A stretch of DNA of 64,000 nucleotides from contig QEUM01000001.1 of the NCBI GenBank assembly GCA_003577165.1, positions 124,001 to 188,000 of the forward strand, given 5' to 3'. Both the position numbers and the translations under genes were made by a program. This DNA is from Armatimonadota bacterium (GTDB lineage: Bacteria > Armatimonadota > Fimbriimonadia > Fimbriimonadales > ATM1). Shown piece after piece: positions 59,722-62,264 of this stretch. Numbering within the stretch: the stretch's first letter is position 1; each line of letters begins with the position of its first letter. The notes beneath the pieces are model-generated. The model was not told where the DNA came from. It worked only from the letters and a program-made list of their open reading frames with translations, and did not search any database.

Positions 59722-60819
59722 CTATTCCCCTCTTAGGTACTCGGCCCCGTACATCGCCGCCTGAGGCGCGACGGTGTCAATCGCGTTGGGCGCCAGGACG
59801 AATGCGAACTTCATCGGGAACTGTCCCGGCGGCGGATTGGGAGTGTAAGTGCTTGCGCCCCACGCGACGGCAGACGCGAATCCCCTGAAGTTGGAGAGCG
59901 TCGCGCCTGCGTAGGTGAGGACGGCTTCGAGGCGGCCGTTCAGGCCCCTGCGTCCATCGGCCGTAGCCATGCGGAACTCGCCCGTGAGCAGTCGTCGTCC
60001 GTTGGGCGCAGTTTGGATCGCGAACTTGCGCTCCAAGATTTCGGACGTTTTCCAGAAGTCCGGCTCGCCGCGCACGGCGTCGACGAACGCGAATCGGCAC
60101 AGTCTCGCGGCCAGCGCCGGTGGCACGTCCGATCCGCTGCGCAACTGCGCGGCCTCGTCGGAGAGTATCCAGACGTGATCGCGCTGTAGGTTCTCATTCG
60201 AGGGGTTCGAGTCCTTCGGGACCGGCGAGATCCGTGAATACATCCTGAGGACGATCGTGCCCGGTGGTGCTGCCGGGCTGACGTCTTTGAGTTCCGGGCG
60301 GGTGCCCGCTCGTTTCGGCGCCGCGAGGAAGGCAGAGCGCGCCTTGCGGAGCATGTCGAGAACGCGATCCACGTTGCGGTTGTTGTTGAATCCGAATGCC
60401 TGGCCGTCCGGGCCGATGACGTAGAAGCCCTGACTTGTGACGCCGTCACGAACGCGCGGATTGATCTGACTCACGGCGTGCATGAACCACTCGCCGGTCG
60501 GACTCCTTCGATTCTGAAGGTCGTGAGTGTTCCCCGCGAATGGAATGAAGTCGCGGAGAGCGGCGATCACGTCGTCATGCGAGAAGAGGAACCGACGGTC
60601 CCACAGACCGTTGTTTCACGTGCATCCCATCGGGTGCCCGTTCATGATCCAGAGGAAGATGGGCTTGCCGGTCGCCTCGGCCGCCGAAACCGCATCTTGG
60701 AGCCGGGTCCGCCACGGAATCGAGAGCCACTTCTCCTCTTCCGGCGAGGGCAGCACTTCAGCGATGCGAGCCTCGATGTCGAGGCTTAGGGGTGCGAGAG
60801 CCAGAGCGACCAGCAGCAT
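59722..60819 (-). CDS. Candidate selenoprotein: thioredoxin-like exported protein with in-frame TGA (Sec)
   Basis: Two frames annotated separately by naive translation are one gene interrupted only by TGA at 60616-60618. ATG 60817-60819 lies 2 bases after the DUF4139 stop and opens a signal-like segment (MLLVALALAPLSL). Upstream of TGA: 'PWRTRLQDAVSAAEATGKPIFLWIMNGHPMGCT', quoted as 'ATGKPIFLWIMNGHPMGCT'. Downstream, with no frame change: 'NNGLWDRRFLFSHDDVI', 'FIPFAGNTHDLQ' and 'SQGFYVIGPDGQ'. This is the layout of a thioredoxin-fold domain, with TGA two residues after a Cys, at the redox site. A bSECIS-like stem-loop follows at once. The C-terminal 200 residues are of unknown family. A nonsense mutation is the alternative. 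Confidence 0.72.
60588..60602 (-). promoter_or_regulatory. bSECIS-like stem-loop after the in-frame TGA
   Basis: On the minus strand GGGACC (60602-60597) pairs with GGTTCC (60593-60588), six pairs with one G-T, closing a GTC loop whose first base is G and lies 20 bases after the TGA. This is within the spacing usual for bacterial SECIS elements. An alternative stem (ACGGTC with GACCGT, loop TGTGG) overlaps it at 60611-60595. Confidence 0.6.
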
Positions 60820-60821
60820 GA

Positions 60822-62264
60822 CTATTCCCAACTGGTTTGGACGGTGTAGGTGATGACTACTTCTTTGTCCGGCTGGAGCGTCACGAGGTATTCAAATGTG
60901 TTGGAGTCTGTCTTCTTGTGAGGCATGGTCTCGGAGAGGATGCTCCACTCGGCCCATGCGTGCTCGACGACTCTCACCGTCTCAGCGACCCTCTTCCGGT
61001 TTCTCAGGCGGATTTCGAATGTCTCTTGCACGACTCTCGGCGAGATGATCTTGAAGTCGGTTCGCTTGCGTTCGCCGACGATGTCGAACGCGTCGCCGAC
61101 GTAGAGCCGGATCTTCTCCTCTCTCGGTGTGTGATCGATCAGGTCCTCGCCGACCATTTGAACGGACCCAGAAGAATCCCGCTTATAGACACGCACTTTT
61201 CCTTTTGGAAGAGGAATGCCCAAGCCGTTCTTCTCGCTGTTGATCATCTCCACCATGATGTTGACTTTGACGTTGGGATCCGTCGCGTATCCTTGGCCTG
61301 GACGATAGGTGTTGCCGTATCCTTGCCACACGCTCCTCTGCCCCTCGAAGATGAGTTCTTTGCGAACCGCAACGTCTTCGGCCCCCAAAAGGGCGATCTG
61401 CTTGGTTTCCTTGTTTCTCACCGTGGCGGGGCGCTGAAGCGTGTACATGTGATATTCGAACAGGCCTTCCTCTACGAACTGATCAGCCGCCTTCGCCATT
61501 TCCATGCGCGGCGCACCACCCCCGAAGCCGCCTCGGGGCGCAGGCATGATCCTCCTCACGTCTCCTGCGATCAGCTTCAACTTTGCGTTCTCATAGGTCG
61601 CTCCACTTCGATTATTGAGCGTCACCCAGCCATTGAAGTTGGCCTTCGTGTCGTTCGGATCAAGCGTCATGACGTACTCTGCCGACCAACTGATTTCTCC
61701 CGTTAGATACGCCACTTCGACTTGGTGCAGTCCCGCCTTCGCTGCCGCGACATCCCACATCAAAGTCGGCTTGCTGATAAGTCCGCGAGGCATCTCCAGG
61801 ACTTCGATCGTCCCGCTCGGATTCAAGATGATCCTCCCGTCGGTCGTCCGAAGCACAAGGCCGTTGTAGGTTTGATAGCCTCCCCCACCAGAATTCACGA
61901 CTGCCGTGGGGGAACTCAGGAGGACTCCCTCCGTCGTGACCACTTGACCGGTTTCCAAGAGTTGATGCAAGCGGATCGTCTTTCCAACGGATTTCTCAAG
62001 GATGCTCGTCGGAGACAGGAGGTCGTATTGGTAGTTCTGTTCGTAAACTTCGATCGGCGAGTCTGGCGTGAGCGAACGGAAACTCACACTCGTGGGATCG
62101 ATTTGCGCAGCGACATCTTCGACGCGGAGTTCTTGGCGGTTCGCTTGCAGCGTGAACTGCCGAACCTCTTTGACCAAAGCGAAATTCGCGTTGTAGACCG
62201 TGATTTCGACGCTGATCGGCGCGGTTGCCAGTAGGGCCCCTGCCGTTAAGAGTGGGTGCAGCAT
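60822..62264 (-). CDS. DUF4139-domain exported protein
   Basis: A 480-residue protein with signal peptide (LLTAGALLATAPIS) and a strong AGGAGGT site before its ATG. The N-terminal half has 'ITVYNANFALVKEVRQFTL', typical of DUF4139 proteins. The second half has the DUF4139 core: 'AYLTGEISWSAEYVMTLDPNDTKANFNGWVTLNNRSGATYENAKLKLIAGDV' (shortened here to 'GEISWSAEYVMTLD' and 'VTLNNRSGATYENAKLKL'), and later 'GKVRVYKRDSSGSVQMVGEDLIDHTPREEKI'-type strands. Function is not established; the fold is mucoidy/beta-sandwich-like. It is followed without a gap by the candidate selenoprotein, whose ATG is 2 bases after the stop. Confidence 0.85.
   Translation of the reverse strand: MLHPLLTAGALLATAPISVEITVYNANFALVKEVRQFTLQANRQELRVEDVAAQIDPTSVSFRSLTPDSPIEVYEQNYQYDLLSPTSILEKSVGKTIRLHQLLETGQVVTTEGVLLSSPTAVVNSGGGGYQTYNGLVLRTTDGRIILNPSGTIEVLEMPRGLISKPTLMWDVAAAKAGLHQVEVAYLTGEISWSAEYVMTLDPNDTKANFNGWVTLNNRSGATYENAKLKLIAGDVRRIMPAPRGGFGGGAPRMEMAKAADQFVEEGLFEYHMYTLQRPATVRNKETKQIALLGAEDVAVRKELIFEGQRSVWQGYGNTYRPGQGYATDPNVKVNIMVEMINSEKNGLGIPLPKGKVRVYKRDSSGSVQMVGEDLIDHTPREEKIRLYVGDAFDIVGERKRTDFKIISPRVVQETFEIRLRNRKRVAETVRVVEHAWAEWSILSETMPHKKTDSNTFEYLVTLQPDKEVVITYTVQTSWE

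Follow-up and report, generated by a model that had tools for sequence, protein, structure and literature searches.

Reading frame and the question it raises

In the window analysed here, a stretch of 64,000 nucleotides from an Armatimonadota bacterium (assembly GCA_003577165.1, contig QEUM01000001.1, positions 124,001 to 188,000), a frame coding for a thioredoxin-like protein carries a TGA codon, and the question is whether this TGA ends translation or is read as selenocysteine (Sec). An initial annotation of the locus had proposed the second reading. The frame lies on the minus strand and runs from its ATG through 365 codons, with one TGA at residue 68 and otherwise free of TAA and TAG (Table 1). 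With the TGA read as U, its context is GHPMGCT-U-NNGLWDRRF, which agrees with the sequence given in the initial annotation, as do the open frame on both sides of the TGA, the start and end coordinates and the 2-base gap to a DUF4139-like ORF; the strand, which had been omitted, is the one point that had to be supplied. A reading of the same positions on the plus strand was tried and rejected as a gene, since it contains no comparable frame. The DUF4139 adjacency is absent at every other homologous locus examined and was discarded as a functional clue, and the gene neighbourhood of the homologues is kept solely among closely related genomes. An Rfam scan of the window gave no match.

Table 1. 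Features of the locus, in window coordinates
Feature	Position	Strand	Basis
Gene of the probable selenoprotein, 365 aa including Sec68	59722..60819	-	Frame open through the TGA; homologues conserved over their full length
In-frame TGA, probable Sec codon, residue 68	60616..60618	-	Column with TGA in 81/86 homologues and Cys in one
Hydrophobic, export-signal-like N-terminus (MLLVALALAPLSLD...)	60757..60819	-	Sequence; hydrophobic stretch upstream of the domain in 72/86 homologues
Predicted thioredoxin-fold domain, residues 22-176	60292..60756	-	AlphaFold2, Foldseek, conservation
C-terminal beta-rich domain, ~residues 189-365	59722..60255	-	AlphaFold2 model
bSECIS-like hairpin GGGACC-GUC-GGUUCC, apical loop 60596-60594	60588..60602	-	Register and covariation tests
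DUF4139-like gene, directly upstream, 2-base gap	60822..62264	-	ORF; neighbour only, no system membership drawn from it

Homologues and the TGA column

Homologues were present in six of eight genomes of the same family, mostly with one in-frame TGA, and the closest relative found (L030), from a genome of the Fimbriimonadaceae, a family within the Armatimonadota, is 57% identical over its best segment and shares the TGA. When a family profile built from 13 sequences (A1) was searched against 291 genomes of the phylum, it matched in 75 of them, and the strong matches nearly all contained one TGA. TGA copies were also found in two genomes of Verrucomicrobiota (G291, 464 and 287 bits; G533, 233 bits), both with SelB over the cut-off. 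A search of plasmids for the family gave no match; nine matches to GGNTGYACNTGAAAYAAYGG in viral contigs all lay in unrelated contexts and were set aside as chance.

The tree was built from 86 homologues, in which the column in question holds Sec (TGA) in 81, Cys in one, Ser in two and Asp in two; over the tree this requires two changes of state. Before cleaning, the alignment of all matches had 85 U and nine 'C' calls at this column, of which five came from GRCU/MCU-type relatives aligned one codon off, the next codon being TGA. The single Cys homologue (L020, G006:C4:98159-99229) has the site CDDC and comes from a genome that also has TGA copies, SelA and SelB, and the four Ser/Asp homologues (L102, L115, L116 and L118) form one clade. 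Because the HMM search scores TGA as Cys, Cys copies would have been detected. The wide set of Cys homologues usual for selenoproteins is absent from the sequences compared, so that the Sec/Cys argument depends on one Cys copy. Conservation of the protein extends some 300 residues past the TGA, with Asn69, Asn70, Gly71, Arg75, Gln130, Gly131, Arg196, Trp217 and a DxVRG motif (247-251) among the conserved residues, and Trp36 is conserved before it, in the thioredoxin-fold domain. Homologues that end at the TGA, or random substitution at its column, were among the outcomes named at the outset as contrary to a Sec reading, and neither was found.

These comparisons bear on the simplest alternative, namely that the TGA is a real stop in a pseudogene, created by a nonsense mutation, or the artefact of one assembly. 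A stop or artefact of this sort would also appear as a lone TGA in a draft-genome gene that is otherwise open, but this TGA is shared by homologues from dozens of genomes, the protein is conserved on both sides of it, and the hairpin behind it covaries, as described below. The homologues already refute this explanation, and we give it practically no weight.

A conserved hairpin behind the TGA

The 6-bp stem with a GTC loop that had been described 20 bases from the TGA is present as described, the first G of its 3-base loop being nt 20 after the TGA. Folding energy by itself set the site only modestly apart, with a mean z-score of -1.13 vs -0.19 at control sites, and for this reason a synonymous-shuffle test was added, in which the register was fixed and the codons past the TGA were redrawn among synonyms according to each gene's own codon usage. 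For sequences like that of the window, with redundancy removed, the best of all scanned registers was centred 21 nt after the TGA, which is the hairpin noted, with 4.22 of 6 pairs formed in the native sequences vs 3.40 in the shuffled ones (z = 7.0). In the VIARR-type paralogues, the best register was centred at 25 nt (5.46 vs 3.09 shuffled; z = 7.7). Over 30 aligned homologues, 74% of the cells of the helix were paired, six of seven pairs were changed on both sides and compensatory change occurred in 20 cells, while the covariation score was 0.32 vs 0.14 in shuffles and dropped when the partner strand was slid. The native value was reached by 0/400 shuffles in each of the two register tests and by 0/500 in the covariation test, counts that are not exact probabilities because the sequences are related. 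The bSECIS-like character first ascribed to the hairpin is therefore borne out by a conserved position, by pairing above that of synonymous shuffles and by covariation.

In the RNA of the window itself, a rival hairpin at nt 5-21 after the TGA is calculated at -8.0 vs -7.4 kcal/mol for the one noted; when all 39 bases of the stretch are folded, the noted hairpin is not the structure of minimum energy. The competing hairpin requires bases near the TGA, and when the first ~8 bases are omitted, as in the ribosomal channel, the noted hairpin alone remains.

Selenocysteine machinery

The genome to which the window belongs (2.75 Mb, 97% complete) has the complete set of genes for Sec incorporation, the lack of which the initial annotation had listed as an objection to its reading: selA (491 bits), selB (376 bits, over the cut-off), selD (355 bits) and a tRNA-Sec (76 bits) with the anticodon UCA confirmed by ARAGORN. 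Its selD (L016:1501-2439) is a selenoprotein gene itself, with an in-frame TGA (DCAGUASKLG) and another TGA at which it terminates, so TGA serves as both Sec and stop in this genome.

A change of the code or another form of readthrough, by which this lineage would read TGA as Trp, Gly or a near-cognate residue, has in its favour that any code giving TGA a residue leaves the frame open. Such a reading is very unlikely in view of the complete Sec machinery, including tRNA-Sec(UCA), and of the two roles of TGA in selD. The codons that replace TGA in the homologues also speak against it, being Cys once and Ser or Asp in a clade mostly without SelA, and never Trp or Gly, and the hairpin fits a bSECIS. 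Taken with the TGA column, the covarying hairpin and the conservation past the TGA, the Sec machinery supports the reading first proposed: the TGA almost certainly inserts selenocysteine rather than stopping translation.

The distribution of the family follows that of the machinery, with a selA match in 43 of the 47 genomes that have a strong TGA copy vs 106 of the 244 others (Fisher p=2e-10). The four TGA genomes without a selA match (G004, G020, G021 and G034) are all fragmented, two of them being 73-78% complete, and SelB is over the cut-off in both G020 and G021. Three of the four Ser/Asp genomes (G143, G144 and G109) have neither selA nor selB over the cut-off, G109 having a full-length SelB-like protein below it, and the fourth (G108) has both genes. 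This pattern suggests, but does not prove, that Sec incorporation was lost and that the active residue was then lost as well, rather than swapped to Cys. Over the phylum as sampled, 149 of the 291 genomes have a selA match, over the cut-off in 138, and Sec use appears to be common in Armatimonadota.

Predicted fold and active site

AlphaFold2 modelled the whole chain (13 sequences, mean pLDDT 88.7) as an N-terminal alpha/beta domain followed by a C-terminal beta-rich domain, and models of the N-terminal domain (53 sequences, pLDDT 96.6) have the active-site helix beginning immediately after Sec. Foldseek searches with the N-terminal domain returned Thioredox_DsbH (7tkv), 3f9u, AGR2/AGR3, ERp18-like proteins and DsbD-gamma, with a probability of ~1 and E values of 3e-4 to 7e-4 and weaker, and a sequence profile search agrees with this fold (3f9u, E 2e-4). 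The domain, with its beta-alpha-beta ... beta-beta-alpha arrangement, is predicted to take a thioredoxin fold of the DsbD-gamma/AGR2/DUF255 type in which Sec occupies the position of the nucleophile. With the whole chain, Foldseek gave no significant match in the PDB, and the C-terminal domain had no recognised relative or fold in that search.

The models also bear on the possibility that the locus codes for two proteins, a chain of 67 aa stopping at the TGA and a second one of 282 aa starting at a GTG at 60570. An ORF from 60570 to 59722 does exist, but it begins inside the thioredoxin fold, past the start of the active-site helix; moreover, all TGA homologues share this junction, and those with Cys, Ser or Asp in place of Sec are each one unbroken chain. 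We consider two separate products extremely improbable, and one chain that continues through Sec68 is the reading followed here.

The site reads Cys66-Thr67-Sec68, a CxU motif that is kept in most members and replaced by CU in a subgroup. Since several members with Sec have no such Cys (GSTU, GTTU, GMTU and GETU), Cys66 would be dispensable, and Sec alone may be enough, by analogy with one-Cys peroxidases. As for the cis-Pro expected opposite the active site, the aligned sequences have no conserved Pro there, and Gln130-Gly131 stands before the strand instead. The hydrophobic stretch upstream of the domain suggests that the protein is exported.

Relation to known families

The window protein had no Pfam match at E values up to 1, and its only NCBIfam match was to VPGUxxT type 1, at 12 bits. 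The VPGUxxT family (NF041382/NF041383; OS_HP5), in which Sec likewise lies near the active-site helix of a thioredoxin-like domain, is the known family of which the protein might be a divergent member, since weak matches cover ~50-70 residues of the thioredoxin domain (E=0.08 for the window protein, E=5e-7 for the best relative). Outside these residues no similarity was found, the motif here is GCTUNNG, not VPGUxxT, the score of 12.2 bits is far below the curated cut-offs (350 bits for NF041382, 275 for NF041383), and none of the 291 genomes had a match over that of NF041383; membership of this family is therefore very unlikely.

Other known proteins share single features with the family. The Trx7/PDZ selenoprotein (NF041199, cut-off 300 bits) has a distant Thioredoxin_7-type domain, but its motif is CxxU, here CxU, and the window protein was unmatched, the best score, from one distant relative, being 20 bits over a span of 24 residues. 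The CxU motif is that of Sec.1 among the thioredoxin-like Sec.1/Sec.2 proteins (PF13192; CxU and UxC), and a scan of 13 full-length and 53 domain sequences gave no PF13192 match. The nearest solved folds of the N-terminal domain, those of the DsbD-gamma, AGR2-AGR3 and DUF255 (Thioredox_DsbH) type, ERp18 included, have CxxC, CxxS or CHWC at their sites, whereas this family has CxU, a second domain of beta type and Gln-Gly at the position before the strand.

The initial annotation had recognised no described family with the GCTU context, and this statement held: no Pfam or NCBIfam model scored over its cut-off, and catalogues of 2022 (PMC9312934) and 2026 (PMC13188914) contain no family that combines the motif with this architecture. 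The CxU families in both catalogues have other domains, none of which matched here. Literature searches, with subscription papers and supplementary tables outside their scope, found no paper on the family. It is thus an apparently undescribed family of exported redox selenoproteins, of a kind already known and nearly exclusively Sec, as judged from the phyla searched here. GrdA, selenoprotein A of glycine reductase, is a small CxxU protein unrelated to the present one; it has been named as an earlier example of a selenoprotein without Cys homologues (PMC12013277). The authors of deep-Sep note that selenoproteins of this sort, without Cys homologues, can go undetected by their method (PMC12013277), and this blind spot may explain why the family is absent from the literature. 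Selenoprotein searches mostly lean on Cys relatives, so they overlook a family that is almost all Sec, whose genes would be cut short or missed in annotation. With the present case the Armatimonadota, on which the papers searched contained no selenoprotein report, gain a family of exported redox enzymes.

Proposed role

The gene very probably encodes an exported two-domain selenoprotein in which UGA68 is decoded as Sec through SelB, tRNA-Sec and the hairpin, and which would carry out selenolate-based reduction outside the cytoplasm. In the mechanism that we propose, the UGA at residue 68 would be read by SelB and tRNA-Sec with the assistance of the hairpin 14-28 bases behind it, placing Sec68 just ahead of the active-site helix, at the point that the nucleophile takes in folds of this kind. 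Once outside the cytoplasm, the selenolate would reduce a disulfide or peroxide substrate; in most members Cys66 of the CxU motif could form and resolve a selenylsulfide, a role in which it would be dispensable, and the C-terminal beta domain may bind the substrate or a partner. Most likely the protein is a thiol/peroxide oxidoreductase that is exported and works through its selenol; this reaction and the substrate are inferred, and we put the chances of thiol/peroxide reduction as the broad reaction class at about even.

With slightly more confidence than that, we favour a wider view, in which the protein belongs to an ancient and large selenoenzyme family of the Armatimonadota, with copies in Verrucomicrobiota, whose chemistry would effectively need selenium. 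Sec would have been kept through deep divergence and many paralogues, genomes losing Sec incorporation would tend to lose the catalytic residue (Ser/Asp) and not swap to Cys, and related lineages would hold further Sec motifs, so far undescribed (GHCUQNG, GRCUGG and GCGUNNA). The Ser/Asp clade and the lone Cys copy offer a natural test of when sulfur cannot replace selenium.

Related motifs with in-frame TGA

Several groups of sequences with other motifs around an in-frame TGA were seen in the course of the searches. Ten loci of Fimbriimonadales genomes (type C, L103-L112; e.g. L103:3578-4051) have the motif FGDPRGHC-U-QNG, with Cys directly before Sec and a hairpin centred at 25 nt; the type C example scanned had no NCBIfam match. 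More distant thioredoxin-like proteins from other Armatimonadota families (L117, L120, L121, L122, L124 and L125) read GRC-U-GGAF, the best known match of L117 being VPGUxxT type 2 at 22 bits. A GCG-U-NNAVRGR variant, also with TGA, occurs in two genomes of one family, f28 (L099 and L100), and a weak relative from Verrucomicrobiota (L139, G533:C23:56423-56614), likewise thioredoxin-like, has FC-U-ANGTL with an in-frame TGA.
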